38,115 nt of DNA from positions 1-38,115 of the IMG/VR virus record IMGVR_UViG_3300028925_010766; one strand, given 5' to 3'. This document shows, in pieces, positions 2,308 through 21,743 of this stretch (position 1 is its first letter; each line of letters begins with the position of its first letter). Made by a program: the position numbers and the translations under genes. The notes under the pieces are model-generated. The model was not told where the DNA came from. It saw nothing but the letters and a program-made list of their open reading frames with translations, and ran no database searches. This stretch comes from a virus.

Positions 2308-4310
2308 TGGAAGACAAGCTCACAATAGCAGAGATGGGAATAGAAGCCCAAGCCGCTAATCCTGATGTGTATGGAGGAATGACTGGCCTTGAGGCTGGCA
2401 ATCTATTTCTGGAAAACGAGCCTGACTATTGGACTCTTGTCAGAGAAGAGGATGCTGGCGAAGAGATCAAGGGTGGGTATCGAGATACGATTGGCAACAA
2501 GTTCACGAGAATGTCTGGGTTTGGTGGCATTGCAGACGATCTTGCTGCGATGCGTCCAGGTCAGCCTTTGATGGGTCGGATAAGTCTTGGGATGCAAGAA
2601 GCCGTCCTTCGTGCGCCTGGGAGTCTTATAGACGAAAGCGTGAACACGTACGATGCGCTTATCAACAACACAGCCGAGACATGGCAGGGCGTTAAGGATA
2701 TAGGGGAGGGTCTTGGACGGTCGGCTGTTCGTAATCTTGGCACGAAAGACGACTCTATTCTTGGTCGAGCCATTGGGCAAACTGGTGGACCGGAGTTTTC
2801 TGCTGATGGTCCTCCAACAGAACGACACCCCACAGAGCAGATGGCCTCTGCTGTTATGTCCGACATGCAGTCTAAGTTATTGGACCCTGAGGAATGGATA
2901 AGAAATCCTGGGGGTAATGCTCTCATGGCTTCAGGTCTTTTCCCTACGCCAGCTTCAGTCCCCAAGTGGTCCGCCCTAGTCAATGCTGCGAATCCTACCA
3001 TCCTCGCTCTCAAGGGAGGTCGAGGTGCTTACAGGGCAGTTAAGGGTGCCGCGAAGATGGCAGGTCGAGAGTATCCAGGCCTCTTGACTGGACGTGGGGC
3101 AGAGGCGATTTCCGAGGCGTATAAAGCAGTTCGGTCTGCGGACCCTAAAATCAGAGCAGCTTACTATAAATATGTAAGTGGGAACAATTCTCTTCTCAAC
3201 TTTCATATGATGGCGAAGACTGCCCTTGAGACTGCTATGGATAAGAGGTCTGCGGACTGGCAGAAGATTTGGCCGGACTTGAAACTCCGTCGTGCGCCTG
3301 AAGGAATCCACAGAAGAATCAGAGTTGCTGTAAGGGATGTCCTTTCGGACTTTCAACTTGAAGACGTTAGGGATTTGAAGAGTCCTAATTTCACAAGAAT
3401 TGGCGTCTTTGACGTTGCTGAACAAAACGTAATCCAAACATGGCTCAATGCGGTTGATGATCCGTCTGCGTTTACTAATGCCGCAGGCAAGTTAGACGTT
3501 GGGTCATTCGACCTTCTACGCAAGGCTACATGGCAAGCATCTCGGCATCTTGAGCATGACAGAGTTGGCAGGAAGATGGTTGAGAGGGCATACGGCAAGA
3601 TCCGTGACGTTCTTGAAGAGAACATCGAAGGCGGCTACGGCGACATGCTTAACGACTGGAAGAAATACACTGAACTCATTGGAGACTTTGAGGCAGCTTC
3701 AGGCACACGCGCTGGCGGATACTTGAAGAGAGAGCAGTTGGGCCGAGCCAGGATTTCAGCAGTTAGAAACCTTATCAGGGGATTGAAGGACGATCCCGCT
3801 GGAAGCGCAACCAGAGATATTATCAACCAAATGTCAGAGGCTACGGGTGTCCCGATCCTTCCGGCAGCGGCTGGAGCCCTTTTCAACAACTGGGTTGGGT
3901 CTGGGTTGATTTCTAGGAGTGAGCTTTCTGGTTTGATGAACATGGTAACACAGGGAGCCGTCCTTCATGGGTTCGGAATCAATCCTTTTTTTGTGTTACT
4001 CCAGGCTCCCCTGGTCTCTCCTAAGATTGTTGGACATGGGATTATTCCTGTCCTTGGAACAGCGTCCAGGCATAAGGACACGATTATGAACGTCCTCAAC
4101 TCGATCCACAGTAAGGTTCCTGAGGGTTGGGATACGGCGGGGATGACTTACTGGCAAGCTGCTCAAAGGCTAACAGAGGAACAGAATGTTAAAATTGCCA
4201 ATGGAGGATTCGTCCCAATATACTGGTTAGAGGGACGCAAGCCTCAAGTAGGAGACGAACTTGGAGATGCGGAAACTTCTGTAAATCAGTTGTCAGGAGG
4301 CATTAAGTAG
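2307..4310 (+). CDS. Large putative virion / ejection protein, 667 aa
   Basis: It starts at the ATG of a TAATG overlap with the preceding gene and ends in a TAGTG overlap with the GTG of the terminase gene, so the three genes are one transcriptional unit. The protein is mostly helical and charged, with a long helical central part (about residues 260-500). The C-terminal third is more hydrophobic and Gly-rich (around residues 515-590, including FFVLLQAP), which could associate with membrane. No enzyme motif is recognised. Its size and place at the end of the late operon suit a protein ejected with the DNA, which is inference; a minor structural protein is the alternative. Confidence 0.6.
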   Translation: MEDKLTIAEMGIEAQAANPDVYGGMTGLEAGNLFLENEPDYWTLVREEDAGEEIKGGYRDTIGNKFTRMSGFGGIADDLAAMRPGQPLMGRISLGMQEAVLRAPGSLIDESVNTYDALINNTAETWQGVKDIGEGLGRSAVRNLGTKDDSILGRAIGQTGGPEFSADGPPTERHPTEQMASAVMSDMQSKLLDPEEWIRNPGGNALMASGLFPTPASVPKWSALVNAANPTILALKGGRGAYRAVKGAAKMAGREYPGLLTGRGAEAISEAYKAVRSADPKIRAAYYKYVSGNNSLLNFHMMAKTALETAMDKRSADWQKIWPDLKLRRAPEGIHRRIRVAVRDVLSDFQLEDVRDLKSPNFTRIGVFDVAEQNVIQTWLNAVDDPSAFTNAAGKLDVGSFDLLRKATWQASRHLEHDRVGRKMVERAYGKIRDVLEENIEGGYGDMLNDWKKYTELIGDFEAASGTRAGGYLKREQLGRARISAVRNLIRGLKDDPAGSATRDIINQMSEATGVPILPAAAGALFNNWVGSGLISRSELSGLMNMVTQGAVLHGFGINPFFVLLQAPLVSPKIVGHGIIPVLGTASRHKDTIMNVLNSIHSKVPEGWDTAGMTYWQAAQRLTEEQNVKIANGGFVPIYWLEGRKPQVGDELGDAETSVNQLSGGIK

Positions 4311-5284
4311 TGGCGAACTCCAAGATCGTTCAGACGATGGAGAAGGAGTTCTGGTTAAAGTCCACTGGTAAGAAGATCAAACTGTTCGATCATCAGAAGC
4401 GCATCCTCAACGAGATGTTTCGCGAGGAGAAGGGCAAGCTCGTCTACACGACGATGGTCTATTCCTGCCCGAAGAAATCCGGTAAGACAGAGGTAGCGGC
4501 AGGCGTTACGTACGCATTCGCTCGTAGGTATGGCGGGGAGATGTATTCCATTGCCAACGACGAAGAGGGTGCGAAGAATCGTATGTACGACCGTATGGTC
4601 CAGGCTCTCTTGATGATGAAGGAGAAGGACCCTGCCTTGTTTGATGAGGTAATGCCTGACAACAAGCAGAGGCGTGAGAGGATCGCTCTAGCTGGCTCGG
4701 TTCAGTTCGCAGAAGGCAAGCAGAAGAACTTCGGCCCGCACGTCCTGAAGTATGTCGCCTCAGACTATGCAGGCGAGGCAGGCAGTATGAACGCCATGTG
4801 TGTATTCGATGAGTTGTGGGGCATCTCCAGCGAACGTGGAGAGCGTCTGTGGACCGAGTTTCAGCCGATCCCGAATCTTGAGGCTAGTATCAGGTTTGTG
4901 ACAACGTATGCAGGGTTCTACGGCGAGTCAGCGTTGCTCTGGAGGATCTACGAGAACGTAGTGAAGCCTAACCCCCACACTAACGAAGAGGAAGGCACCA
5001 AGATCCCAGGTCTTGAGGACCTTCCTCTCTACACTAGTGACGATGGCTCAACGATTGTCTACTGGGACCATGAAGCCAGAATGCCATGGCACACTCCTGA
5101 GTTCCTGGCTGCGGCCCAGAACGATCCTTCAGTCCAAGGACGTGACAGTGAGTTTAGACGCCTATGGCTGAACGAGTGGTCGTCTGGAACTGAGGCCTTT
5201 ATCGAGATGGAAGTGGTGGATCGGTCTCAGGCCAGGGGCAAGGAACGAGGACTGATTAACAATATGGACCTTATCCACGTCTGA
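4310..5284 (+). CDS. terL (N-terminal part): Terminase large subunit, ATPase half only
   Basis: This is the DNA-packaging motor ATPase domain. Visible motifs are Walker A (SCPKKSGKT, residues 52-60), Walker B with catalytic acid (CVFDE, residues 164-168) and the coupling motif TTYAG (198-202). The start is GTG at 4310, overlapping the previous stop. The 324-residue product ends in the linker that normally joins the ATPase to the RNase H-like nuclease; the nuclease domain is missing here. A matching nuclease domain is encoded separately at 21162-21743 on the same strand. Together they make 517 residues, ordinary for a complete large terminase. The convergent minus-strand early block begins 29 bases after the stop. 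It probably acts at the portal with the separate nuclease half; that they cooperate is inferred. Confidence 0.92.
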   Translation: MANSKIVQTMEKEFWLKSTGKKIKLFDHQKRILNEMFREEKGKLVYTTMVYSCPKKSGKTEVAAGVTYAFARRYGGEMYSIANDEEGAKNRMYDRMVQALLMMKEKDPALFDEVMPDNKQRRERIALAGSVQFAEGKQKNFGPHVLKYVASDYAGEAGSMNAMCVFDELWGISSERGERLWTEFQPIPNLEASIRFVTTYAGFYGESALLWRIYENVVKPNPHTNEEEGTKIPGLEDLPLYTSDDGSTIVYWDHEARMPWHTPEFLAAAQNDPSVQGRDSEFRRLWLNEWSSGTEAFIEMEVVDRSQARGKERGLINNMDLIHV

Positions 5285-5313
5285 GTAGCTCCAGCATGAA
5301 GCAGGCTCACCCA

Positions 5314-5754
5314 TCAGAGTTCTGCTCCCACTCTGTATTTCTGCTCATATAGGGTCGTAGTTCTAGCAGACGGTTGAGGTAAAAACTTCTCAACAGACTC
5401 ACCCTTATCGTACTTCTCCAGAAGAACATCAATTACGTCCTCATCGGCTCCCATGACCCCACACCATGGGCCTCGATGGTCTTCAAGGAAGATTCTGGCA
5501 TCCCATCGAGTGTCCTCATCCTCGTGGGAGAGAGCTTTAAATGCGCTGTGTATCAGAGCAATTGAAAACCCAGACCATCCGTTGAATCCATGTTGGGCCG
5601 GTAGCTTGCGCTCGTAGTGAGGGGGTCTCTCTCTCTCGTGATCTTTCTCTAGGTAGCAGGCTTTGCATTCAAGGCGTTTACTCCTAGATCCGTCATGCCT
5701 GAAGTAGTATTCCTCCTCTTCTTTGAAGAGGCTGCACTGGTTACACTTTCGCAT
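5314..5754 (-). CDS. Small zinc-ribbon protein, 146 aa
   Basis: The start is placed at the ATG ending at 5754 (MRKCNQC), which has GAGAGG six bases upstream and overlaps the previous gene by 14 bases; an upstream extension in the same frame lacks these signals. The N-terminus holds a two-knuckle zinc site, CNQC then CKAC about 26 residues later, a layout common in small phage proteins that bind nucleic acid. The rest is charged with no recognised motif. It is the last gene of the minus-strand early operon and converges on the terminase ATPase gene. No precise function can be assigned. Confidence 0.7.
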   Translation of the reverse strand: MRKCNQCSLFKEEEEYYFRHDGSRSKRLECKACYLEKDHERERPPHYERKLPAQHGFNGWSGFSIALIHSAFKALSHEDEDTRWDARIFLEDHRGPWCGVMGADEDVIDVLLEKYDKGESVEKFLPQPSARTTTLYEQKYRVGAEL

Positions 5755-5962
5755 TTGTTGCCTCTCTCGCAAGTTCAATCGTAGCCCACCTCGCAAGACC
5801 TCTTTGAACAACCAGTTCCGGAGAATCCTCATGCAGCTTTGTCGGAGGAGGTCCGTGAGCCCACCCCAACTCGTCCAGGCGTTCTTTGCCGCCCTTCCGC
5901 ATCTCGGACTTCAATTCGTTGTATAGCTTCTGAATACCCTGCGTGTGCTTATTAGTCCACAC
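5741..5962 (-). CDS. Hypothetical protein, 73 aa, GTG start
   Basis: The likely start is the GTG at 5962 (then TGG ACT AAT), eight bases after AAGGAG, which sits inside the end of the upstream gene. The product is charged, with a helical N-terminal half and a helical C-terminal tail rich in Ala and Arg. No domain is recognised. Overlaps on both sides (11 bases upstream, 14 downstream) place it firmly in the operon. Function unknown. Confidence 0.65.
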   Translation of the reverse strand: MWTNKHTQGIQKLYNELKSEMRKGGKERLDELGWAHGPPPTKLHEDSPELVVQRGLARWATIELAREATNAKV

Positions 5963-6173
5963 TAGGCTTCTCCTTGTCAATAGCCTGTAGGCGCATCCAA
6001 TCAAAACAACTCCAACACAGGTCCAGGCTTGTCTTAGTCGAGCCCTGTAGGGTCCGGACACTCAAGCTCACTTCGTACGGAGGTTGAGGGGTTTCGTTAC
6101 TCCCCTCTAATGTCAATTCTCTGTCATCAGAATTGATTCTACCTTCACATTCATCACATATCACAACTCGCAT
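5952..6173 (-). CDS. Small zinc-binding protein, 73 aa
   Basis: The start is the ATG at 6173, seven bases downstream of GGGAGG; an in-frame TTG at 6188 is less likely. Two Cys pairs (CDEC near residue 6, CWSC near residue 53) are spaced as in a zinc ribbon with a long beta-rich insert. The size and pattern suit a small nucleic-acid-binding or regulatory protein. It follows the LexA-like gene by 11 bases and overlaps the next gene. Confidence 0.7.
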   Translation of the reverse strand: MRVVICDECEGRINSDDRELTLEGSNETPQPPYEVSLSVRTLQGSTKTSLDLCWSCFDWMRLQAIDKEKPSVD

Positions 6174-6184
6174 ATACGCCTCCC

Positions 6185-6433
6185 TCAAGGCTTCAGGTCA
6201 GTTAGGAACAGTCCTCTGGAGATTTTCTCCAGTCTTTGCAGGTATCCTTTCTTGATTAGTGATTTCAGGCAATTACTAGCGGCTTGGAATCCGGTCACTT
6301 CTTTGCAGTGAGGATAGCAGGCATAGCCAATCTCTCTCAAGGTCGGAGCCATCCCATCTTTTATTCTACTCTTGACGTATTGATACACCTCCTTCTGTCT
6401 ATCCGTCAGGGGGTCTCCATGCTTGTTGGTCAA
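6185..6433 (-). CDS. LexA-like winged-helix DNA-binding protein without peptidase domain
   Basis: The 82-residue product is essentially the LexA N-terminal domain: LTDRQKEVYQYVKSRI, then TLREIGYAC as first recognition-turn, then NCLKSLIKKGYLQR and RGLFLT of the wing. LexA family proteins bind palindromic operators. This one stops where LexA would begin its self-cleavage domain, so it cannot be inactivated by RecA-driven autoproteolysis. The start is TTG at 6433, overlapping the M15 stop (TTGA), with GGAG six bases upstream. It may repress phage promoters or compete for host LexA sites; both roles are inferred. Confidence 0.75.
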   Translation of the reverse strand: MTNKHGDPLTDRQKEVYQYVKSRIKDGMAPTLREIGYACYPHCKEVTGFQAASNCLKSLIKKGYLQRLEKISRGLFLTDLKP

Positions 6434-6840
6434 CTGTAGCTCCAGACGTAGGGACGTGACACATGGCTCAACTCATCCTCAACCAGATCGAAGTGGATAA
6501 ATCTGGACTGCATGGGGCCGGACTGCTTTATCCCAATGCCGTTGAATACTGGCATGAGTAGTTGCAGGACCAGATGTGCCTTGATCCCATAGCAGGCCAC
6601 GTCGCCAGCCTTCCCGGTGGTGTGAGTCCCAGGTAGATCCTTCGCCGCCTCGATAGAGTGTCTCGGACTTCGATACATGGAGGTCATGTTCATACCAGCC
6701 CCAAGCTCGATACGGACTCCCTGTAGTATGTCCATGAACTCTGGGTCCATGTCACACTCACCAGTCTCTTGACAAGCCGCCTCATCGAAACTGAAGTTGG
6801 GCCAGCGTCCTTCAGGCCAAGTCTGTCTTGTGTAAATCAT
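6430..6840 (-). CDS. M15 family zinc peptidase, probable endolysin (L-Ala-D-Glu or D-Ala-D-Ala type)
   Basis: This 136-residue protein matches the small phage peptidase M15 layout. Zinc ligands are visible as H73 and D80 in GTHTTGKAGD and H116 in RFIHFD, with the conserved YRSP near residue 56. Such enzymes cut peptide bonds of peptidoglycan and serve as endolysins. No signal peptide is seen, so release would need a holin, and none is recognised beside it. It overlaps the HNH gene by ATGA and the LexA-like gene by TTGA. A lysis gene within the early-strand operon is unusual but known in phages. Confidence 0.85.
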   Translation of the reverse strand: MIYTRQTWPEGRWPNFSFDEAACQETGECDMDPEFMDILQGVRIELGAGMNMTSMYRSPRHSIEAAKDLPGTHTTGKAGDVACYGIKAHLVLQLLMPVFNGIGIKQSGPMQSRFIHFDLVEDELSHVSRPYVWSYS

Positions 6841-7259
6841 CGGTTCTCCTGTAGGGCTTTGAGCTTCCCCTTCAACTCCTCGGCAAGCTCTCTGTGGTCT
6901 GCGTCTGTGTGTATACGAGGTGGGTTAACGTCCAACTCCCTGAGCCGATCATATCTCTCTGGGCCGAGCCATTCCTTGAACCATTCAACGTGTTCTATGT
7001 TGTGTAGATCCATCCATTGGTGGCATCCAACGGGATACTTTCCTGGTATGGCGCACTTGGCACTGGCGTTGTCAGGTAGGTACTTCATAAAGACGTTCCC
7101 GCCGCCCATGCCCACAGGCAGATGGTGTGAGGCGTGAAGCACTCTAGGATCATGCTCAAAGTTTCTGTGGCACACCTGACAGGTCCACTTGTCTCTTGTC
7201 CGGATGTAGTCAGAAAAGAGCTTTCGCATAGTAGCTAGCTTGAGCCTGCGCTTCTTCAT
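6837..7259 (-). CDS. HNH endonuclease-like protein
   Basis: The 140-residue protein has the zinc-knuckle HNH pattern: CQVC at residues 27-30, the ASHHLP motif near 43-48 supplying the first histidines, an Asn near 64, and a later Cys-His pair (GCH, 78-80). HNH proteins nick or cut DNA, and in phages they may be packaging partners, recombination nucleases or homing enzymes. Here it overlaps neighbours on both sides by ATGA, so it looks like a resident operon gene and not a free-standing homing insertion. The substrate cannot be told from sequence. Confidence 0.75.
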   Translation of the reverse strand: MKKRRLKLATMRKLFSDYIRTRDKWTCQVCHRNFEHDPRVLHASHHLPVGMGGGNVFMKYLPDNASAKCAIPGKYPVGCHQWMDLHNIEHVEWFKEWLGPERYDRLRELDVNPPRIHTDADHRELAEELKGKLKALQENR

Positions 7260-7447
7260 GCGGTTTGAAGTTCTTCTTTCCGGCGTCGATACATCTTACC
7301 GAATCCCACGATTACCGAGTTGGCACACTTGCCACAGGCGTACAGGTCTCCGGATTTCACGTAGCTTTCGCCGCAATCAACATCGACTTCGTTCTTGATA
7401 CAGGACATGGGACCTCGGCAATGTCCACAGACAGGCATGTCACGCAT
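7256..7447 (-). CDS. Small zinc-ribbon protein, 63 aa
   Basis: CGHC near the N-terminus and CGKC about 30 residues later form a rubredoxin-like or zinc-ribbon knuckle pair; the C-terminus is basic (RRRKEE). The start may be 7447 or the in-frame ATG at 7438. It overlaps the HNH gene by four bases. It probably binds nucleic acid or a protein partner; function unknown. Confidence 0.65.
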   Translation of the reverse strand: MRDMPVCGHCRGPMSCIKNEVDVDCGESYVKSGDLYACGKCANSVIVGFGKMYRRRKEELQTA

Positions 7448-7727
7448 TAGCAGTAGCCTTTCGTTGAGAGGGTGCGCTACCTACGGCCACGTCACAACAG
7501 ACGAAGGCGCACCCGCTTTGGGAGATCGGGGCCACTCCCACAGCCGGAGGAAAAGAAGCTGTTGTCGAAGGGAATGACCCCGAAGGATTGGTTGGCGGGA
7601 CTGGTTTCCCCGTAACCCAGTCCCGCCGGTTAGTCCTAAAGCTGATGGCTCCCCACCTATTCCATGAAGTTCCTTTAGCCGAGGCGATCCCGGTGTCATT
7701 CTCCATGGAATTGCACGTTCCCATCAT
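7440..7727 (-). CDS. Doubtful ORF, 95 aa, Ser/Pro/Ala-rich
   Basis: An open frame fills the gap between the SSB-like gene and the zinc-ribbon gene and overlaps the latter by eight bases. The product is low in complexity and rich in Ser, Pro and Ala, has no recognisable domain, and no ribosome site precedes the ATG at 7727. The same stretch holds an 11-bp inverted repeat (7594-7604 with 7617-7627). It could be a divergent gene translated by coupling, or a non-coding structured segment. Confidence 0.3.
   Translation of the reverse strand: MMGTCNSMENDTGIASAKGTSWNRWGAISFRTNRRDWVTGKPVPPTNPSGSFPSTTASFPPAVGVAPISQSGCAFVCCDVAVGSAPSQRKATANA
7594..7627. repeat. 11-bp inverted repeat (hairpin)
   Basis: GGCGGGACTGG at 7594-7604 is perfectly complementary to CCAGTCCCGCC at 7617-7627, with a 12-base loop. 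It forms a strong GC-rich hairpin on either strand. No T-tract follows, so it is not a typical terminator; it may be an RNA structure or a protein-binding site. Confidence 0.7.
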
Positions 7728-7736
7728 AGGACATAG

Positions 7737-8465
7737 CTAGAAAGGTAGTTCGTCTACAAGGTCGTCTCCTGTGAAGTCTTCGGCTGGAACGTCCTTACCA
7801 GGAGGCGGAGGCATATCCGAGTTATCTACATCCCCATCAATCGCACCGGCAACCTTCTGCACAGCAGACTCAGGGGCATGTTGGTACCCCTTTGGGAGTA
7901 CGGATCTCTGGTCGGTCTGAGCAATGAACAGGGTAGTTGCCAGCATCCGAGCTTGTGTCACGCACTCTGTAGGTGATCGGTCGGTCAAGTCTTCGCCAAA
8001 TAGAATATGACAAGCTCTTGAGTATGAGGCGGTGAACACGTCACAAGCCTCTCCCAGAGATATTCCAGATCCTCTCTGTGGGGCCTTTGTTGGAGCCGTA
8101 GGCTGTTTCTGGGCCGCTCCCGGCGCAGGTGGAGGTCCACCACGGCTAGGCTCTGGGTCGGGTGCGTCTGCTGTCCTGCCAGGGGTTGCCAGTTCCCATC
8201 CGTCCCCGTCATAGGTCCAGACCTTCCACTCTCCGTTCTTCTTGCCCTTCTTGATGGCGAGGGGCATACCCACAGACGGGTTGAGAGATTCGATGGTACC
8301 CTGAAGCTCTCCGTCAGTGAACAGGACCTTGTCCTCTCCGTTCTCTTCGACTCCCCAGATCCACCACGGACCAAACTTGCTGTTGCCACCCTTGGCAGGC
8401 TTATCGAACTGCAAGGACAGCGAAACCGTGTCGGCTCCAAATTCTACTTTAGGCTTATCAGCCAA
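7737..8465 (-). CDS. Putative single-stranded-DNA-binding protein
   Basis: The 242-residue protein starts at a TTG with AAGGAG seven bases upstream. Residues 1-95 are rich in beta-strand and aromatic residues (PWWIWGVEE, GEWKVWTY), as in an OB-fold. A Pro/Ala/Gln-rich linker follows (about 98-130), then a helical segment. The extreme C-terminus is acidic and ends in LVDELPF, very like the DDDIPF tip by which SSB proteins recruit replication partners. The tip is the strongest evidence; the OB-fold is inferred. It is the only likely replication protein in the window and is first in its block after a GC hairpin. Confidence 0.6.
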   Translation of the reverse strand: MADKPKVEFGADTVSLSLQFDKPAKGGNSKFGPWWIWGVEENGEDKVLFTDGELQGTIESLNPSVGMPLAIKKGKKNGEWKVWTYDGDGWELATPGRTADAPDPEPSRGGPPPAPGAAQKQPTAPTKAPQRGSGISLGEACDVFTASYSRACHILFGEDLTDRSPTECVTQARMLATTLFIAQTDQRSVLPKGYQHAPESAVQKVAGAIDGDVDNSDMPPPPGKDVPAEDFTGDDLVDELPF

Positions 8466-8488
8466 AACACTTCTCCTTGTTGTTGGTT

Positions 8489-8515
8489 GCCCCCCGGCTT
8501 TCTGAGCCGGGGGGC
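8489..8515. terminator. GC-rich 11-bp hairpin between two minus-strand genes
   Basis: GCCCCCCGGCT (8489-8499) pairs perfectly with AGCCGGGGGGC (8505-8515) over a TTCTG loop. It separates the 78-aa gene (ends 8523) from the SSB-like gene (starts 8465). No T-run follows on the minus strand, so it may attenuate, stabilise an mRNA end, or act as a partial terminator. Confidence 0.6.
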
Positions 8516-8522
8516 TTCTCCC

Positions 8523-8759
8523 TTACTTGGACGTGTCTTCTACAACCTCTGTCTCATAGCCCTCCGGGACGTTCCACCATCCCCCGCCGTGGCTGAACTC
8601 AACTTCATCATCCCCCGTCAGTGCCGGAGTTATTTTAATGACGTAGTGGTTTTTGTCGAACCACTCCTTGCCAACAGTGCCACTCAGCTTGTCTTGTACT
8701 TCCTTCAAGCTCTTACCCAGTGCCCATGCACCGAGAGTCCATCCGAAGAAATCACTCAT
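8523..8759 (-). CDS. Hypothetical protein, 78 aa, first gene after promoter
   Basis: The ATG at 8759 has a good GGGAGG ribosome site and lies about 50 bases downstream of a near-consensus promoter. The product begins with a short hydrophobic Trp-rich segment (FFGWTLGAWALGKSL) followed by a mixed beta/charged region with paired Trp (GGGWWNVPEG). No family is recognised. Its position as promoter-proximal gene suggests high early expression. Confidence 0.7.
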   Translation of the reverse strand: MSDFFGWTLGAWALGKSLKEVQDKLSGTVGKEWFDKNHYVIKITPALTGDDEVEFSHGGGWWNVPEGYETEVVEDTSK

Positions 8760-8809
8760 ATTAAACCTCCCTCAGAGGTCTATAACAAGGACCATTCCCT
8801 GTTACTATA

Positions 8810-8838
8810 AGTATACGAATGTCTACCTTGTATGTCAA
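8810..8838 (-). promoter_or_regulatory. Consensus sigma-70 promoter for 8759 to 5314 genes
   Basis: On the minus strand TTGACA (8838-8833) and TATACT (8815-8810) are separated by exactly 17 bases. The -35 is perfect and the -10 near-perfect. A GTAGAC word inside the spacer is also present in the second minus-strand promoter (10991-11020). Transcription would start near 8803 and read the 8523-8759 gene onward. Confidence 0.85.
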
Positions 8839-8850
8839 GGTGCTTAGTAA

Positions 8851-8894
8851 GAAACCTTTTCCTATTTGAAAGAAAGCTTAGGGAAACCTTTTCC
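8851..8894. promoter_or_regulatory. Two 12-bp direct repeats upstream of the promoter
   Basis: GAAACCTTTTCC occurs at 8851-8862 and 8883-8894, 32 bases apart (about three helical turns). The inner copy ends 12 bp upstream of the -35 of the 8810-8838 promoter, a natural place for a regulator. The outer copy also forms a small GGGAAA/TTTCCC dyad (8881-8895). Confidence 0.5.
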
Positions 8895-8924
8895 CATTGG
8901 ATCATATGGGCAGTGCTTCTTTGG

Positions 8925-9176
8925 TCACTGCTCACTCCTCCACGCTTTTATTCCCTCTGATAGCATTTCTATGTCTTCTTGCAGGAACCGGGGAATAAGA
9001 TCGTTCGTTACTTCTCCTTTGGTTTCGCACATCAACAGGGCTACATAAGAAGTGAGTAGCATCCTTCGGGATTGATCTCTTATGGTGTGTAGGGCTCCGA
9101 GGCGTTTTCTTCTCTCAACCTCTTCCATGTCATCCCAGTCCTGCTCGGTCATCTCGTAATCCTCAGGCTCGGTCAT
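8925..9176 (-). CDS. Hypothetical acidic helical protein, 83 aa
   Basis: It starts with the ATGA overlap at the methyltransferase stop. The N-terminus is strongly acidic (MTEPEDYEMTEQDWDDMEEVE), followed by two or three helices with a hydrophobic central one. No domain is recognised. It is the last gene of the 10943-8925 operon. Confidence 0.65.
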   Translation of the reverse strand: MTEPEDYEMTEQDWDDMEEVERRKRLGALHTIRDQSRRMLLTSYVALLMCETKGEVTNDLIPRFLQEDIEMLSEGIKAWRSEQ

Positions 9177-9940
9177 CGGAAGTCCATCACCTCCTGGGCC
9201 ATGCTCTTAGCGGCGATCTCGCAATACTTCTCTTCAAGCTCGATGCCAATAGCTCTCTTGTTGAGGTTCTTCGCTGTTCTCAGTGTAGTCCCAGAGCCCA
9301 TGAAAGGATCTATCACCACGTCTGCGTTGTGGACCTCAAGGCACCTTGCCACAAGCTCTTTAGGAAAGGTTGCCCCATGTGCAGGATTAGGGACAGGCTT
9401 AATGCGCCAGATATTGTCCATCTCTCCACGAGGGAATGTGGCAGTCTCGAATTGGCGGGTCATAGGATCTCTATTGTCGAATACTAGAACGAACTCATAG
9501 GACGAGTTAAAGGTTCTCTCCTTCATTGCTGGCTCCCCAGATCCCTTGTCCCACACGACAACCTCTTTCAGTGTGTCCTTAAACGCTCCCATCATCTCAA
9601 ACAGGGGGCGTTTATTGCCTGTAGCTAACTGGATATTCCAGAACACCACAGGCACCAGGCCCAGGCACGAGGTTAGCACGTCTGAGGCCATCTCGTAGTA
9701 ATCATTAGGGTGTAGGTTGTCCTCATAGCCGTAGTATTTACTGGAGAACTCGTGCTGAACGACCTGCCTCGACACGTAGTCCCGCTTTCCGTTGACTCGC
9801 ATGTTGAGGTTGTATGGAGGGCTTGTGACAACTGCTCCATTCTCCTCTACGGGCAGGATAGGCAGGATCTCCCTAGCGTCTCCATGATAGATTGTCACCC
9901 AATCGTCCGAGTAGTAGGGAGCTTGGTGGGTAAGTGTCAT
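9173..9940 (-). CDS. Beta-class site-specific DNA methyltransferase
   Basis: The catalytic motif IV is TSPPYN (residues 39-44) and the AdoMet-binding motif I is DPFMGSGTT (211-219), followed by AIGIELEEKY (motif II-like). The IV-before-I order defines the beta class, whose members methylate adenine N6 or cytosine N4. The length (255 aa) is normal and no target domain is obviously missing. No restriction enzyme gene lies beside it, so it is an orphan enzyme, likely protecting phage DNA from host restriction or modulating gene expression. It overlaps neighbours at both ends by ATGA. Confidence 0.93.
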   Translation of the reverse strand: MTLTHQAPYYSDDWVTIYHGDAREILPILPVEENGAVVTSPPYNLNMRVNGKRDYVSRQVVQHEFSSKYYGYEDNLHPNDYYEMASDVLTSCLGLVPVVFWNIQLATGNKRPLFEMMGAFKDTLKEVVVWDKGSGEPAMKERTFNSSYEFVLVFDNRDPMTRQFETATFPRGEMDNIWRIKPVPNPAHGATFPKELVARCLEVHNADVVIDPFMGSGTTLRTAKNLNKRAIGIELEEKYCEIAAKSMAQEVMDFR

Positions 9941-10203
9941 AGCCGATCCATGTCCCGCTCTTCGATGGTATCGTAGGGCATGTCCGGCTCAATGGCCCCG
10001 AAGTCCTCAAGGAACGCCTCTGCGATAATCTCCATGTCACTTGCAGACAGGGCTGCGACAACGTCGATCCTGTCCTCACCCTCTCCAAGCCACACAGCGG
10101 TGATCTCCACTTCAGGTCCCTCAGGCGGTTGCATGAATGTCCCCTTGAATCCTGGCGTTGCCGTTCCCTCAATCTCTACCTCAAGCTCAAGGTCCAGTTT
10201 CAT
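9937..10203 (-). CDS. Hypothetical protein, 88 aa, beta-rich N-terminus
   Basis: The N-terminal half alternates charged and hydrophobic residues as in beta strands (MKLDLELEVEIEG) and contains a PPEGPEVEI stretch seen in small uncharacterised phage proteins as I remember them. The C-terminal half is acidic and helical. It is translationally coupled to the methyltransferase (ATGA). Function unknown. Confidence 0.65.
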   Translation of the reverse strand: MKLDLELEVEIEGTATPGFKGTFMQPPEGPEVEITAVWLGEGEDRIDVVAALSASDMEIIAEAFLEDFGAIEPDMPYDTIEERDMDRL

Positions 10204-10376
10204 TCCATCCGCTCCCTGTCAAGCTCTTTGACGTAGTTGTTCAGACGCTCCTGCAAAAACGTCAGCGTGACGATCTCTTCAGCAGTCATGTTAAGTCGCG
10301 TCCCAGAAACTTCCAACAACGTCAGCACAGTTCCAGCCTCAGTTCGATCTAGAACAATAGGTCTAGACTTATTCAT
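10200..10376 (-). CDS. Hypothetical protein, 58 aa
   Basis: The start is placed at the ATG at 10376 (MNKSRPIVLD), seven bases after GGAG and overlapping the previous stop by eight bases; a longer upstream frame lacks a ribosome site. The product is helical, Leu/Glu-rich. No domain is recognised. Confidence 0.6.
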   Translation of the reverse strand: MNKSRPIVLDRTEAGTVLTLLEVSGTRLNMTAEEIVTLTFLQERLNNYVKELDRERME

Positions 10377-10943: not shown

Positions 10944-10990
10944 CTTAGTCTCTCCCTCAAGAGTGTAGGCTATTCCTTCTGCCTGATAGA

Positions 10991-13846: not shown

Positions 13847-14028
13847 ACAGGCTCTCCCGTATACACTACAGTCCAGCAACTACACTCCTCAAGCTCTCTC
13901 CACGTAATGGCCTTTATAGCTTTGTGGCCTCTTTTGCACCTTTTCGATAGATACCTTGCGTATCTACTGGCTCCGGCTCTTGTGGCAAACTGCGAGCCTC
14001 TCTCTTGCGCCTCTGTCAGTTGAGTCAT
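13843..14028 (-). CDS. Basic small protein, 61 aa
   Basis: The ATG at 14028 has AAAGG at good spacing. The product is basic (RYARYLSKRCKRGHKAIKAI) and ends with a strand-rich segment. It sits between two members of the tandem paralog family and overlaps the next gene by ATGA. Possibly nucleic-acid binding; unknown. Confidence 0.55.
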   Translation of the reverse strand: MTQLTEAQERGSQFATRAGASRYARYLSKRCKRGHKAIKAITWRELEECSCWTVVYTGEPV

Positions 14029-14076
14029 TTGGACACCTTTTAACTTCCTCTATAGTTATCAGTATCGACCTTTACA

Positions 14077-14340
14077 CTACATACTGTCAAGCCACGGCTG
14101 AGACAGTGTAGCGCGTCTCTCTCCGGCATAGTAGCAGATATACACGTTCGTACCTATCTGTTCACCTAGGACCTTTCTCTCCGCCTCCGACAAAAACCCC
14201 GCATCATTCCCCGCTTCAACTCCGGACATAGCGCACCACAAGCCGTTTATGTGAGATACAAACATGCTCACATCTCTCTGTAGGCTGGACCTTAACCGAG
14301 CCACTCCCTCGGCTTCTTTCTGAGTTTCAAATTTCCCCAT
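14077..14340 (-). CDS. Paralogous small protein B, 87 aa
   Basis: The ATG at 14340 lies one base after the stop of the previous gene. The start KFETQKEAEGVARLRSSLQR aligns with the paralogs at 13505-13846 and 14342-14563. A Cys/Trp-containing middle and a helical region follow (LSEAERKVLGEQIG). No family is recognised. Confidence 0.6.
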   Translation of the reverse strand: MGKFETQKEAEGVARLRSSLQRDVSMFVSHINGLWCAMSGVEAGNDAGFLSEAERKVLGEQIGTNVYICYYAGERRATLSQPWLDSM

Positions 14341-14341
14341 A

Positions 14342-14563
14342 TCAACACTGGGCACCTTTCTCGTACGCGCCCATAGTCCAGTACTCCAAGCCGGAGTCCT
14401 CAAGCTCGGCGTCTCTCAGCGCGTACCAATACCCAGTGTCTAGCCCGTCGGCTATGCTTTTCTCCTCAACTATGTAGACAACTATATCTCTATCAAGAAG
14501 GGTCCTGAGCTTGGCAACTCCGCAAGCCTCCAATCTTGTGTTAAAGCCTATCAACGTATCCAC
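14342..14563 (-). CDS. Paralogous small protein A, 73 aa, GTG start
   Basis: GTG at 14563 preceded by AAGGTAGG. The N-terminus (LIGFNTRLEACGVAKLRTLL) gives the most diverged copy of the three-member family. The remainder is acidic with several Tyr/Trp. It is the first gene of the minus-strand run 14563-12558. Part of its sequence, GTCCTGAGCTTGGCAA, reappears inverted 94 bases upstream of the gene. Confidence 0.6.
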   Translation of the reverse strand: MDTLIGFNTRLEACGVAKLRTLLDRDIVVYIVEEKSIADGLDTGYWYALRDAELEDSGLEYWTMGAYEKGAQC

Positions 14564-14626
14564 AGGTACCTACCTTTCTGATTTTCACCTATCAACGTCC
14601 TGAGTGGCGTTTGCCAAGCTCAGGAC
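14502..14626. repeat. 16-bp inverted repeat: gene fragment copied into leader
   Basis: GTCCTGAGCTTGGCAA at 14502-14517, inside the paralog A gene, is found exactly inverted at 14611-14626, upstream of its start. A direct repeat CTATCAACGT (14548 and 14590) lies between. The arrangement suggests a small inversion-duplication at the edge of the repeat-rich block, or a long-range RNA pairing covering the GTG start. Confidence 0.7.
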
Positions 14627-14861
14627 TCTCCTCTCTCCGCCTCGGCCTGAGGACGGAGCCGAGCTTGAGCTACTACAGCCGCTCTCTGAGCCAAGATACA
14701 AGCAAAAGAAAGCCGACAAACAACAACAAACCACAGTCCCATATCATAGCACAAAGCTCCTTAGGGAGCCGGAGGGAGCCTCTCAGGCCTCTCCGGACTC
14801 CGTCCGAGTTGGGGTATAGGTAAAGCCTCCGAGGCTCTGAGGGAGCCCCGGAGGCCTCGGC
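14564..14861. other. Intergenic leader and repeat boundary
   Basis: No gene is supported. The left part is AT-rich with CAA repeats and could hold the promoter of the 14563 operon, though no clear -35/-10 pair is seen. From about 14640 the DNA is dominated by GAGCC and CCTCAGG-like words, including a small AGCCTC/GAGGCT dyad at 14824-14836 that may end the VWA transcript. Confidence 0.5.
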
Positions 14862-16124
14862 TTAATCCTCAAGCCGTACGGTTTCTCCGAAAGGTGCAAC
14901 CTCTCGGCTCGTACATGCCCAAAGAGTAGGCACCTCAGGCTCCGAGGGAGGGAAAGGACCGTATAGGTCTGAAAAGTAGATAACGCAACAGGGAGGCTCC
15001 TCAAGCTCCTCAACGGCTGAGAAGAGAGGACGGAAGTCTGTTCCGCCTCCGCCTTTCGGAGTAAAGTCAAGAGCCTCTCCGGCTTCGAAAGTCTCGTGGC
15101 TCTTGACCTCTGTATCGACTGAGAAGATATGGACCTTGCTCGGCTGAACCTCGGATATCATATCCTCTATCTCAGCCGAGAATTTGCCGAGAGCTACAGT
15201 ATCAATTGAGCCGCTTGTGTCGATAGCTATAACAATCGGAGCCATGCTCTGAGAGCGGAGGCTCGGAAGGTACATTCCGCCGTATACGTAGCTCGTATTT
15301 GGCCGAGTCCATGTATAGTCCGCTTTGCTTGTCTCAGTTACAAAACGGCGGAGGATACTCCGCCAGTCAACGTGACTCTCAACGGCTCTCTCAACGTTCC
15401 GCTCAAGCTCTCCGCCAAGCTCTCCGGCCACCATAGCCGCCTCGCGTACGGCTTGCTTCCAGTCCTCCGCCGATGGCTCCCCTTCATCCTGTGGCGCGTC
15501 TCTAACCTCTCCGGCTTGGCTCGGCTTGTCAGGCTCTCCGGAGCCGCTCTCCGGCTCTCCCTCGGCTCCGTCCTCGGAGGCCTCGGAGCCGCTCTCCGGC
15601 TCTCCGTCCTCGTCTCCGTCTCCGTCTCCGTCTCCGTCCTCTCCGCCGTCCTCAGGCTCTCCCTCGGCCTCAGGCTCGGCCTCAGGCTCCGGAGCCTCAG
15701 GCTCTTGAGAGCCGAGCCGGTCAAATATCCATTCGGCGGACTTGCCGGTATACTCGGAGTCGAGTAAGGCTCCCTCAGGCAAGGAAAAGCCGGAGTCCCT
15801 CAAGATAGAATTTATAGCGTAGTCCGCCGCTTCATTGAACCGTACCGGCTCCCGTCCGCCTCTCCGCCATGGGTGGAGGTTGCTGACATGGAGGACTTCA
15901 TGAGCTACGAGTCCGATCAACTCGGCCTGAGAGAGTCCGTCGACGTACTGAGGGTTATAACCGATGCTGACTCCGTCCGTCCACGCCGTCTCCGCCGAGC
16001 CGTCCTCCACGAGCCGGAGACGGAGGGAGAGAGAGCCAAAAAAGCAAGTCCGAGAGTCAAGTAAGAGGACCGTCCGAGCCGCTATAACTCTCCGCTGTAC
16101 CTCAGGATATTGTACGCGCTCCAC
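14862..16124 (-). CDS. VWA domain / predicted metallopeptidase-like protein (DUF2201-like, CobT-like)
   Basis: GTG start at 16124. Residues 1-135 hold a zinc-protease signature, HEVLH (75-79), in a predicted metallopeptidase-like domain. A very acidic Glu/Asp/Gly/Ser/Pro linker spans about 141-225. The C-terminal von Willebrand A-type domain has the metal site DTSGS (302-306) and a conserved GGGGTDF (358-364). This order is that of the VWA partner of MoxR ATPases and resembles cobaltochelatase CobT in linker and VWA. It likely acts with the MoxR-type ATPase and the DUF3150-like protein encoded just upstream to remodel a protein target, perhaps inserting a metal. The target is unknown. Confidence 0.85.
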   Translation of the reverse strand: MERVQYPEVQRRVIAARTVLLLDSRTCFFGSLSLRLRLVEDGSAETAWTDGVSIGYNPQYVDGLSQAELIGLVAHEVLHVSNLHPWRRGGREPVRFNEAADYAINSILRDSGFSLPEGALLDSEYTGKSAEWIFDRLGSQEPEAPEPEAEPEAEGEPEDGGEDGDGDGDGDEDGEPESGSEASEDGAEGEPESGSGEPDKPSQAGEVRDAPQDEGEPSAEDWKQAVREAAMVAGELGGELERNVERAVESHVDWRSILRRFVTETSKADYTWTRPNTSYVYGGMYLPSLRSQSMAPIVIAIDTSGSIDTVALGKFSAEIEDMISEVQPSKVHIFSVDTEVKSHETFEAGEALDFTPKGGGGTDFRPLFSAVEELEEPPCCVIYFSDLYGPFPPSEPEVPTLWACTSREVAPFGETVRLED

Positions 16125-16126
16125 GA

Positions 16127-16990
16127 TTAGGCTCCCTTGCCGAAACTGGCTGACATGGCGGAGAGAATGTCCGTAGCTTTCTGAGCCGTCTCCGCTCGTG
16201 CTACTGTATCCTCTCGGAGAGTCTTAGGATCGAACAAAGTCAACGAGTCGCGGACTGAGATCCTCATAGCCTCAAGACTGGCGTCTCCCGTTACGTTGAG
16301 CCGCTTGAGCAACTCTACAAGCTCCCGAGCGTTATGTACGAGAGAGTCGCGGAAGATAGCATCCGGCTTGCTCAGTCTCTCTTTCATAGCCTCGACAGTC
16401 GTATACAGGCGGTCCCAAATATCTTTCATAGCCTCGGAGGTTGCTACAGTTACGCGATCTTCAATCTGAGATTCGAGGACGTCAATCTGAGCCTGAGGTA
16501 AGTCAAGCCGAAAGTCTCCGCCGGAAGGGACGGGAGAGAAGTCTACAGAGAAACTGTACTTGTCTCTCATTTGGTGCGGAGCCGGATAGTCCGCCTCCTT
16601 ATACATGCCGTTGAGCCGAGTCCGAGCCAGTTCCTTGAGTTGAGGATACTCCGCCACAAAGTCCGAGAGAGCCGAGTCGAAGCGGCTCCGGAGAGTACGA
16701 GTCAAGTCTGTGTACGCCTGCCAGTTGGCAGTTGGCAAGAGACGCCACCCCTCGTCCGTCCATGCAAGAGTATTTGCGTAGTGAGCCGTCCGAGTGTCTG
16801 AGGCTATCTTACTGATGGCCTTGAAAGTCTCTCCCGTCAATAGGTGCTTATTGTACCTGCCAGCGTCCGCCGTGGCACCGTGACTTGCGTTAACCTCCGC
16901 CGTTATGAGCCGGTCAAACCGCCGAGCCGTCCAGGTAGAGATGGAAAGCTTTACCAACATGGCGCGAGAGTGGATAGAGTCAGTAGTCAT
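16127..16990 (-). CDS. DUF3150-like protein of the MoxR-VWA cassette
   Basis: The start is the ATG at 16990 within a TAATG overlap with the MoxR stop; the longer frame upstream runs through the ATPase gene. The 287-residue protein matches what I recall of the DUF3150 family: an early STWTARRFDRLIT segment, a NKHLL segment near residue 53, then mostly helix with a DFRLDL strand. No catalytic residues are known. Its fixed place between ATPase and VWA genes marks it as a third subunit or adaptor. Family name is from memory; operon position is directly visible. Confidence 0.65.
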   Translation of the reverse strand: MTTDSIHSRAMLVKLSISTWTARRFDRLITAEVNASHGATADAGRYNKHLLTGETFKAISKIASDTRTAHYANTLAWTDEGWRLLPTANWQAYTDLTRTLRSRFDSALSDFVAEYPQLKELARTRLNGMYKEADYPAPHQMRDKYSFSVDFSPVPSGGDFRLDLPQAQIDVLESQIEDRVTVATSEAMKDIWDRLYTTVEAMKERLSKPDAIFRDSLVHNARELVELLKRLNVTGDASLEAMRISVRDSLTLFDPKTLREDTVARAETAQKATDILSAMSASFGKGA

Positions 16991-18021
16991 TAGTTTGCTC
17001 CATTCATTAGTTGGCCGAGAGGGGAAGAAACGAGAGAAACGAAAGCCGGAGTCTGGCAGATAGCCGGATCTCTCCGCATACAATCGCGGAGGATGAGAGC
17101 CGCAAACTCTCCATGGAGAGCCGCTAAGAGCCGTTCGCAGTATTTGGATATGTTTGCGAAGGTTGAGACGTTAGCACGAGCCGCTAAAGCCGTAGCCGTA
17201 GCGTATAGAGCCGCTGGCTCGGAGGGTATAAGAGCGGAGTCAGGATCTATCAGGATAGCGTCGATAGAAGGGAGAGCCTTATACATTTTCTCAAAAGTCA
17301 GCCGAGAGAGAGCCGCCGCCTCTCCGACACAACCAATAAGAGCCTCTCTGAGGATGTCCTCAGGTAGATCGAGCTTGAATAGCTGGGAAGCATTGAACCA
17401 AGTACGAGGGCTCGGAGACTGTGTAAGATCGGCTGACGGCTGAAAGTCAGAGAGAAGCTCCGGCCGGAAACGGATATGAGCCACGTCCATGGGGCCCACT
17501 CCGTTGTCAAGAGCCCAAGTGCACCAGTCGTCCAAGTCCGGCTCAAGCTCTACGATAGCCGCAAACCTCGACTTGATAGGCTCAAGCAAGCCTCCAACTC
17601 CGGCTTTATCCGTCCGCCGATTAGTTGTCGCAATAAATACGATACAGTCGGGAAGTACGTGACCGTTGACTCTCCGAGCTAAAAACAACTGCATGTATGC
17701 CGCCTGCATAGCCGGAGAGGCTTGGCCTAGGTCCTCAACATTCCAGACTGTGAGAGTCGTAGCTTTTAGGGCTCTCGCAAGGGCTCCGAAAGGGAGAAAG
17801 GTAGCCGTCTCAGACTCGGCCTGAGGCCATGGAAAGCCTTGAACAACTGTGGGGTCCTCAACTGCCGGGTTCGTTATAATGTGATCGGCTCCGGCCAGTA
17901 AGCAGGCCTGAGCTACTACCTCAGACTTGGCAATACCTGGCGCGCCAGTTATGAGGATCGGAAGCCGAGCCGCTATAGATTGAGCCAAGAAGAGCTTGAG
18001 TTGGGAAGGTGTAAGAGACAT
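16990..18021 (-). CDS. MoxR-type AAA ATPase (CobS-like)
   Basis: The 343-residue protein carries Walker A GAPGIAKS (residues 26-33), a Walker B-like strand ending VEDLGQ (95-100) and sensor 1 ATTNRR (131-136). The Walker B acids are E-D and not the usual D-E, and are followed by LGQ, a variant to note. MoxR/CobS ATPases act with VWA proteins as chaperones or metal chelatases. The gene starts by TAATG overlap with the small upstream gene and leads the three-gene cassette. Confidence 0.85.
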   Translation of the reverse strand: MSLTPSQLKLFLAQSIAARLPILITGAPGIAKSEVVAQACLLAGADHIITNPAVEDPTVVQGFPWPQAESETATFLPFGALARALKATTLTVWNVEDLGQASPAMQAAYMQLFLARRVNGHVLPDCIVFIATTNRRTDKAGVGGLLEPIKSRFAAIVELEPDLDDWCTWALDNGVGPMDVAHIRFRPELLSDFQPSADLTQSPSPRTWFNASQLFKLDLPEDILREALIGCVGEAAALSRLTFEKMYKALPSIDAILIDPDSALIPSEPAALYATATALAARANVSTFANISKYCERLLAALHGEFAALILRDCMRRDPAICQTPAFVSLVSSPLGQLMNGAN

Positions 18022-18215
18022 TACGAGTTCCTCATAGGTGCGAGAGTTTCGGTGAAACTGAGGCCGAGAGTCTCAAGGGACGCCTTGTCTCTATCTGTCA
18101 ATGTTAGCTTGCCTGTAAGCCTCTCAACGGCGGAGGCCTCAGTCCCTCCGATTAAATACATGTGCGACTTGCCGTAGACTTCGCGCCGATAATAGGAAAG
18201 ATTGAGAGTAGCCAA
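18021..18215 (-). CDS. Small hypothetical protein, 64 aa, TTG start
   Basis: TTG at 18215 follows GAGGGAG by seven bases and the stop overlaps the MoxR ATG (TAATG). It reads as a strand-rich N-terminus (ATLNLSYYRREVYGKSHMYL) and a short helix. It is the promoter-proximal gene of the MoxR-VWA operon and may be a fourth component. No family is recognised. Confidence 0.65.
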   Translation of the reverse strand: MATLNLSYYRREVYGKSHMYLIGGTEASAVERLTGKLTLTDRDKASLETLGLSFTETLAPMRNS

Positions 18216-18245
18216 AATATTCTCCCTCAGAGAATAGAGTTGACT

Positions 18246-18285
18246 CCGTCCGGAGACGGAGGTTGAGCCGGAAGAGACCTTCCGG
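18246..18285 (-). promoter_or_regulatory. Two short hairpins in the operon leader
   Basis: CCGTC/GACGG (18246-18250 with 18255-18259) and CCGGAAG/CTTCCGG (18268-18274 with 18279-18285) lie between the 18294-18321 promoter and the TTG start at 18215. They could shape the leader RNA; whether they regulate is unknown. Confidence 0.45.
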
Positions 18286-18293
18286 TAAGGGTG

Positions 18294-18321
18294 AATATAA
18301 TAGACTGAGAGGGGGAGTCAA
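18294..18321 (-). promoter_or_regulatory. Promoter of the MoxR-VWA operon
   Basis: On the minus strand TTGACT (18321-18316) and TATATT (18299-18294) are separated by 16 bases. The resulting leader of about 70 bases ends with the GAGGGAG site of the 18215 gene. Confidence 0.65.
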
Positions 18322-18903
18322 GATAAATAATGAGCCGTTGAGAGATAGAATAGCCTGAGCCGAGCGAGAAACGGCTAGACTACTATGTACAAGGGAGACT
18401 CAGGAAAGTCCGAGCCTGAGCCTCAGGCCGAGCCGGAGCCGTTGAGTTGAGAGCCGGAGCCGAGAGCCGGAAGCCGAGCCGAATGGGAAAAATGTTCTGA
18501 TACTAAGTCCGAAACTACTGCCCAAATGTATATACCACTGAAAGCTCCTGTAAGCCGTCCTGAGCCGTTGAGAGGCTTAGACGGGTATGGACTCAGGCGG
18601 ATAGGAGATCGACGATTTGATGCAAAAATTGCACCGTTGTTTTTATTGAAGTTACGACAGTTTTTTGCCTGATTTTCTTGCCTTTTTTGGGCATTGTCGC
18701 TTGTTTCCAAAGGGAGGAACTACGTGATACTAAGCCGAGGGACTGAGGACGGGAGCCGAGCCACAACGGGTATAGTGCTCAGGTGTGCAGTAGTGTATAC
18801 TTGAGCAGGCCTGAGGCTTGACGATCCTCGGACGGAGTCCGGAGCCGAGCCAACACAAATACTAAGAGAGCCGGAGACCTATGGACATGAGACTTGCCGA
18901 GCC
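18322..18903. other. Divergent intergenic region with AT-rich island
   Basis: No gene is supported. A minus-strand frame (18423-18710) has a TTG start without a ribosome site. On the plus strand a 26-codon ORF (18724-18804) has GGGAGG before a GTG but no recognisable product. Between dense GAGCCG/CCTGAG words lies an AT-rich island (about 18605-18712) with T-runs at 18660-18666 and 18683-18688. It sits where leftward and rightward transcription part, so a replication origin or control region is possible. Confidence 0.5.
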
Positions 18904-20335: not shown

Positions 20336-20562
20336 TGGATAACAACCAGCGAAGGATTCTCTTTTGTGTGTGGAGTAGATGGTTCGGAAGGGTTCTTCCC
20401 AAGGCTAAGTCCGATTGTCAGCACCCAGAACTGTTCGTCGGGGATGACGACGTTTTCGGTCCCGTAATATCTTGTCCTGACTGTGACAGACGGATTGATG
20501 AGGCATTTCTTGAGATGGCCTCAGAAAGAGGAACCTTCAACATGCAAAAGCCGAATGGATAG
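20335..20562 (+). CDS. Small zinc-binding protein, 75 aa
   Basis: The product has a C-x-H pair (DCQHPEL) and a CPDC knuckle, giving one possible zinc site as in small phage zinc ribbons; the N-terminus is basic and aromatic. Its last codons lie inside the first copy of a 24-bp repeat (20555-20578). Confidence 0.6.
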   Translation: MDNNQRRILFCVWSRWFGRVLPKAKSDCQHPELFVGDDDVFGPVISCPDCDRRIDEAFLEMASERGTFNMQKPNG

Positions 20563-20578
20563 AGTCACCCCTACCAGC
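20555..20578 (+). repeat. 24-bp direct repeat, copy 1 (copy 2 at 20801-20824)
   Basis: This stretch, which begins ATGGATAGAGTCACC, is identical to 20801-20824. Copy 2 is the first eight codons of the 20801 gene; copy 1 opens an ORF of only 14 codons that stops near 20599. Both copies also contain the TAG that ends the gene before. The 213-base gene between (20596-20808) is thus bracketed by a duplicated gene junction. Confidence 0.85.
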
Positions 20579-20595: not shown

Positions 20596-20808
20596 ATGAA
20601 GAAGACGATGAGGGATAGGCTAATCCGAGACTTGAGGGCAGGCCTCTTTAATGAGGGCAAGTGGTTCGCGGCCCAACTCTTTCTGTTGATTGCCAAGGCC
20701 GACGAGGAGAACCTCAAGTTGTTGAAGAAAGGCTTCCCCAAAGAGGTCAAGTTGTATGTCGAGTTCCGCGATGTCGGCGGCAAGATGTTTTTGGAACTCG
20801 ATGGATAG
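20596..20808 (+). CDS. Hypothetical protein, 70 aa, flanked by direct repeats
   Basis: ATG at 20596 with GGAAGAG upstream. The product is a basic helical N-terminus (MKKTMRDRLIRDLRAG), a hydrophobic helix (FAAQLFLLIAKA) and a strand-rich end. It ends in the second 24-bp repeat, which suggests it arrived as an extra gene between its neighbours. Function unknown. Confidence 0.6.
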   Translation: MKKTMRDRLIRDLRAGLFNEGKWFAAQLFLLIAKADEENLKLLKKGFPKEVKLYVEFRDVGGKMFLELDG

Positions 20809-21178
20809 AGTCACCCCTACCAGCGTAGGGCAACTTGAAATCGGAGCCGTCTACCAACTAACCGGCAAGGCTAAAGGCCTGGACATAATTCCGACCCAAG
20901 TCTTCCGACTGGAGTCGATGAACACGAATCCTGTCAATGGGACTCAAGTCCTTGTAGGTACGCTGTGGTACAAGTTCTGGATCGAGGGAAGATGGTATTC
21001 CGGCACCTACAAGAATCATCAGGTATTGTCTCACAACGTCTCCATAGGCATGACGACAGGCAAGCATGACTTCCACCTCGAACGGATAGACCCGAACAAG
21101 GTGAAGGAAGTCCTCGGTCAGGGTCGAGCCTACGGGGACTACATCCAGCAGACGTTTATAGATGAACGACAGACTTGA
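20801..21178 (+). CDS. Hypothetical protein, 125 aa
   Basis: The true start is the ATG at 20801 (MDRVTPTSVG), not the upstream ATG in the neighbouring gene. The protein is strand-rich with aromatic residues (WYKFWIEGRWYSG) and ends with a helical segment; an OB- or SH3-like barrel is conceivable. It overlaps the terminase nuclease gene by 17 bases and may drive its translation by coupling. Confidence 0.65.
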   Translation: MDRVTPTSVGQLEIGAVYQLTGKAKGLDIIPTQVFRLESMNTNPVNGTQVLVGTLWYKFWIEGRWYSGTYKNHQVLSHNVSIGMTTGKHDFHLERIDPNKVKEVLGQGRAYGDYIQQTFIDERQT

Positions 21179-21743
21179 TCCTGTCCTTTATCTTGGGCTC
21201 GACGTAGCCACCAAGCGGGATACCTGCGCCTTAACTGCTATTACGCCTGATGACGACTTCGAGACCTACAGGCATTGGGGGCATAGGATCTGGAAGCCAC
21301 CTGTAAACCTCGTGACACAAGTCCTGCCTATGTTGGTAGAACTGTTCACGAATCATCGAGTTGCGGGTTTGTGGTATGACCCCTATCAGGCTATCACCCT
21401 GGCTCAGCAGTTGAAAGTCATGGGGCACGGCTACAAACTGTTTGAGGTCAACCAGATGACACAGATGACACAAGCCGGTAATACCCTACACTCTCTGTTG
21501 AATGAAGACCGACTTACGCTAATATCCGATGAAGAGGTCAGGGCTCAAATCTCATGGGCGTCAGCAAAGCAGACTGAGAGAGGCTGGAGGATTATCAAAC
21601 TCGTACAAACCAAACCCATCGACTTCACAGTCTCTCTTGCTATGGCTGCAATGGGAGCCAATCAGGAACACGGTCACGGCACGTTCCCGGCATGGAGTTC
21701 AACCAAGCACGTCCGAAGTCCATTCGTAATGGAAGGCTTCTGA
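21162..21743 (+). CDS. terL (C-terminal part): Terminase large subunit, nuclease half only
   Basis: The 193-residue protein is the RNase H-like nuclease domain of a large terminase on its own. The metal-binding acids are visible as D14 (YLGLDVATKRD), D73 (AGLWYDPYQ) and D154 (KPIDFTVSLAMAA), in the correct order and spacing. There is no ATPase motif. A TAG stands directly before the ATG in frame, so no N-terminal extension is possible. The missing ATPase half is at 4310-5284, 15.9 kb upstream on the same strand. It cuts concatemers at packaging start and end, presumably after assembling with the ATPase half. Confidence 0.85.
   Translation: MNDRLDPVLYLGLDVATKRDTCALTAITPDDDFETYRHWGHRIWKPPVNLVTQVLPMLVELFTNHRVAGLWYDPYQAITLAQQLKVMGHGYKLFEVNQMTQMTQAGNTLHSLLNEDRLTLISDEEVRAQISWASAKQTERGWRIIKLVQTKPIDFTVSLAMAAMGANQEHGHGTFPAWSSTKHVRSPFVMEGF

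Follow-up and report, generated by a model that had tools for sequence, protein, structure and literature searches.

The window analysed here is a stretch of 38,115 nucleotides comprising positions 1 to 38,115 of the IMG/VR virus record IMGVR_UViG_3300028925_010766, in which the large terminase subunit (TerL) is encoded in two separate pieces. The first, at 4310-5284 on the + strand, has a GTG start and encodes a stand-alone TerL ATPase subunit of 324 aa, while the second, at 21162-21743 on the same strand, encodes a stand-alone TerL nuclease subunit of 193 aa with an RNase H fold. Both open reading frames (ORFs) are open at these coordinates. The ATPase half contains the Walker A (SCPKKSGKT, residues 52-60), Walker B (CVFDE, residues 164-168) and coupling (TTYAG, residues 198-202) motifs attributed to it in the initial annotation, and a TAG codon lies immediately 5′ of the nuclease ATG at 21162, where an in-frame stop had been described.

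In PHROG, the terminase large subunit family phrog_9 aligns with the ATPase half over profile positions 193-471 (E 5e-12) and with the nuclease half over positions 482-668 (E 7e-13), hence the halves are consecutive parts of one family. The Pfam family TerL_nuclease matched the nuclease half and left the ATPase half unmatched. In a PDB profile search, the HK97 TerL (6z6d) was recovered with the nuclease half (E 8.5e-11) and, as a weak match, with the ATPase half (E 0.06). AlphaFold2 modelled each protein as a confident single domain, with a predicted local distance difference test score (pLDDT) of 91.1 for the ATPase and 87.8 for the nuclease, and 6z6d was the top PDB match of Foldseek for both models (E 5e-8 and 1.7e-8). 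The features of an HK97-like TerL are thus found, i.e., a P-loop ATPase with its Walker A, Walker B and coupling motifs and an RNase H-fold nuclease with its catalytic aspartates, except that the two domains do not share a polypeptide in the window. The ATPase extends approximately 24 residues beyond its domain and the nuclease begins 7 residues ahead of its first strand. Taken together, the ORFs, the phrog_9 matches and the structure matches confirm a TerL split at the ATPase-nuclease domain border, with halves 15.9 kb apart on the + strand.

No further TerL match was found anywhere in the record besides the two halves. The initial annotation had named a third, intact TerL as one of the observations that would speak against the split, and none is present in the record or in the 46-kb relative G022, the ends of which overlap by 123 bp. 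This relative, probably a closed map of 46.1 kb, carries one copy of each half. The window record itself is linear and incomplete, and looks cut from a circular map. Its first 155 positions lie within 36-nt tandem repeats (unit TATAATCAGCCCGCCCCAGCAATTGAAAACCCGACA) of a Pro/Asn-rich coding region, which are the likely reason for the assembly break. In the relative G003, the homologue of window positions 36939-38115 is linked to the homologue of positions 1-852 with about 5 kb intervening, and the + strand module is continuous from the nuclease through to the ATPase. On the circle, a single + strand late module would therefore have the nuclease close to its beginning and the ATPase at its end.

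Both the individual halves and alignments were used to search IMG/VR, and the relatives so gathered form two sharply separate sets. The TerL is fused at more than 60 loci, with an ATPase at most ~42% identical to that of the window; one of these (L100, positions 4690-7314) has ~330 additional residues within the ATPase domain, an insert that bears a LAGLIDADG domain and is probably an intein. In about 40 contigs, the nuclease is an independent ORF starting shortly ahead of the first strand. Where these contigs include the ATPase, it is always an independent ORF as well, ending 20 to 30 residues past its domain at the same domain border, and every split contig of sufficient length contains both halves. 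Maximum-likelihood trees place the split forms in one clade (bootstrap 98 for the concatenated halves, 97 for the ATPase and 90 for the nuclease), and support was 97 after the addition of G024 and L233. The main groupings within this clade are identical in the ATPase and nuclease trees, arguing for joint inheritance of the halves. Elsewhere, a tblastn search with the halves of the window and of L008 against 50,697 phage records found no cultured relatives. A search of GTDB species genomes for a host gave no match with the nuclease half; with the ATPase half it gave only distant relatives (40% identity or less), all fused except L226, an incomplete or frameshifted case.

The distance between the halves varies within the split clade. 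The long contigs G006, G014 and G022 have 17.0, 18.8 and 21.6 kb between the halves, respectively, against 15.9 kb in the window, while in the near-linked members (L003, L004, L006/G002, L008, G023 and G024) the ATPase gene lies 0.9-2.4 kb upstream of the nuclease gene, separated from it by, e.g., a C5 cytosine methylase and small conserved genes. In two assemblies from separate data sets (L233 and L234, 99.5% identical over 6.1 kb) the order is reversed, with the nuclease first, the ATPase 2.3 kb downstream and a sigma-70-like factor gene in between. These arrangements imply at least one or two rearrangements, depending on whether G018, which has unclosed ends, is counted as near-linked. In L233, the stand-alone nuclease gene is overlapped at its start by that of a GIY-YIG domain protein (4490-4786), which hints that the nuclease gene may have been moved or split with the involvement of a homing endonuclease.

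Residues K56, K59 and E168 of the ATPase and D14, D20, D73 and D154 of the nuclease are invariant across split and fused relatives. A comparison of the window with G003 gives ratios of non-synonymous to synonymous substitution rates (dN/dS) of 0.12 (ATPase) and 0.10 (nuclease), values that are rough since dS exceeds 1 and that indicate purifying selection on both halves. Each protein also ends in a tail typical of the split forms. The C-terminal tail of the ATPase (residues 301-324; 5210-5281, + strand) has a G...GL.N.M-like motif conserved in split forms only, and that of the nuclease (21681-21740, + strand), which is modelled with low confidence, has an H-x-R-S motif absent from fused forms. 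Each of these motifs is altered or missing in a few split members. The conservation of tails in both split proteins suggests contact between the halves, and both tails are candidate docking elements.

By all available sequence criteria, the split TerL is real, clade-wide and functional. The monophyly of the split forms and the matching trees of the halves point to one ancient fission at the ATPase-nuclease linker, followed by joint inheritance, and we consider it highly probable (roughly 0.88) that the products are now two separately translated proteins acting in trans. The initial annotation had proposed that the motor either assembles in trans or is rejoined in some way, and the clade-wide split, the conserved border, the purifying selection and the reversed order in L233 and L234 strongly favour the former. 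As to how such a motor would work, we lean towards non-covalent docking, in which one nuclease for each ATPase joins the ATPase ring at the portal, perhaps by means of the conserved C-terminal tails. The docked nuclease would supply a DNA-gripping surface during translocation and would also cut at initiation and termination, thereby replacing the covalent hinge of an ordinary TerL. Some points weigh against this interpretation. Separation of T4 gp17 at its ATPase-nuclease linker abolishes DNA translocation (PMC3012670, PMC9958956), hence a split motor needs some compensating interface. In addition, the evidence for the split motor comes from genes and single-protein models, and the fused TerLs closest to the split clade are not firmly resolved as its sister group, which differs between the trees of the two halves.

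A misassembled or chimeric window is hardly credible. The record is incomplete and its start inside a tandem repeat demonstrates one assembly break; however, the layout of the window recurs at 17-22 kb in G006, G014 and G022, both of its borders agree with G003 and the split itself is present in ~40 contigs. Misassembly was thus rejected on the basis of the same separation in several independent contigs, one of them with overlapping ends. If the split is genuine, the halves could still be rejoined in infected cells by trans-splicing, a split intein or a programmed DNA rearrangement, for which the spliced, intron-split terL genes of the Jug phages (PMC12363816) and the LAGLIDADG-bearing insert of the fused L100 TerL could serve as models. 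The halves start and stop independently, however, and both the gene order and the distance (0.9-21.6 kb) vary; the reversed order excludes simple cis-splicing in L233 and L234 and, by descent, makes it very unlikely clade-wide. An Rfam scan of the window gave no family at the gathering score, and thus no group I intron match, a domain search of the halves found no intein domain and no repeat pair links the two split borders in the window. Intron, intein and DNA rearrangement were rejected on these grounds together with the order reversed in two assemblies. Rejoining is therefore very unlikely, and the halves are taken to act in trans.

It is likewise highly improbable that one half has decayed or been otherwise employed while another enzyme packages the DNA. 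No support was found for this, beyond the fact that the packaging set is incompletely annotated, as the small terminase subunit (TerS) was not recognised in the window; against it stand the purifying selection on both halves, the invariant catalytic residues, the lack of another TerL match and the occurrence of both halves in all split contigs of sufficient length. A less probable reading than docking, although one that deserves to be kept in view, is that the ATPase ring translocates DNA alone and that a separate, exchangeable nuclease is brought in only for the initiation and termination cuts. It shares with the preferred explanation two proteins in trans and differs from it in mechanism. 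The genes indeed move independently, with variable order and distance, and phi29-type motors are described in PMC7672431 as packaging with a C-terminal domain in which no more than a vestige of the nuclease is left. Conversely, T4 translocation requires both domains in one protein, both halves are always retained and have matching trees, and the conserved tails are suggestive of contact. Were the nuclease uncoupled from translocation, this would be an architecture without description, for tailed phages of the HK97 fold, in the open-access papers searched.

The gene block between the halves (5314-18710) lies mostly on the - strand and encodes an M15 peptidase, an N6/N4 DNA methylase, a MoxR-like ATPase, von Willebrand factor type A (VWA) proteins and many small genes without assignment. 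It had been described as early genes, mostly on the other strand; the strand holds, while "early" was a guess and the block includes the M15 peptidase, a possible lysin. Within it, a row at 14862-18021 comprising a putative MoxR-like ATPase (phrog_1297), a DUF3150-like gene and a DUF2201 metallopeptidase/VWA protein is conserved in G003 and G004. A small conserved gene (20756-21178, + strand) overlaps the start of the nuclease gene, and most split relatives have its homologue directly ahead of the nuclease; in L233 the homologue is placed after the ATPase instead. Near the start of this gene, an exact 24-nt direct repeat (ATGGATAGAGTCACCCCTACCAGC) occurs at 20555-20578 and 20801-20824, 246 nt apart. 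The late module includes a portal-like protein (24585-26930, + strand; phrog_332, phrog_1216) and the major capsid protein (31564-32469, + strand; phrog_4523, Pfam Phage_capsid_4). The nuclease gene stands about 3 kb before the portal-like gene and the ATPase gene is far from it. Two further genes deserve mention, a phage-encoded GroES-type co-chaperonin (23184-23576; Pfam Cpn10, E 4.9e-25), conserved in several split-TerL relatives, and a late-module protein with an L,D-transpeptidase (YkuD) domain (27797-28999), which is unusual among phages and may act on the cell wall as part of the virion.

The field has yet to explain how the TerL ATPase couples ATP hydrolysis to DNA movement through the nuclease (C-terminal) domain, and the covalent linker has been reported as essential for translocation in T4. 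The split-clade phages must manage without a covalent hinge. A natural clade lacking the linker makes it possible to test directly if docking without a covalent bond suffices or if the nuclease domain is dispensable for movement, and it provides two components, each of which can be purified, titrated and exchanged on its own. There is also a consequence for annotation, where TerL is a common marker gene, since in these phages it is easily recorded as truncated or absent.

Comparison with known systems shows several ways of dividing a terminase. The herpesvirus terminase gene UL15 lies in two pieces with opposite-strand genes between them, and RNA splicing joins its exons, a situation without a counterpart here. 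In phages, terL is split by group I introns and spliced to give one protein in the Jug phages (PMC12363816) and in Bastillevirinae (PMC11878797), and inteins are present in a cyanophage TerL (PMC7156551). The coding sequence is interrupted in the intron-split genes as it is here, with the differences that no intron was found in our case, that the halves start and stop independently and that the order can reverse. The open-access literature yielded only TerLs split by introns or containing inteins, and none with its two domains naturally encoded by unjoined genes; a precedent may exist in other literature or among annotated isolate genomes. The short TerL families phrog_4914 and phrog_2699 each match one half of the window protein; judged by match coordinates only, they break inside the ATPase domain and not at the domain border. 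The HK97-type TerL (6z6d; phrog_9) shares the ATPase and RNase H nuclease folds, the motifs and the catalytic aspartates, but HK97 and all the close fused relatives seen encode one polypeptide, whereas the split clade has two unlinked genes. A parallel in the position of the cut is the experimentally divided T4 gp17, severed at the ATPase-nuclease linker, the separate domains of which retain ATPase and nuclease activity (PMC3012670, PMC9958956). Those pieces do not translocate DNA, whereas the natural split clade persists.
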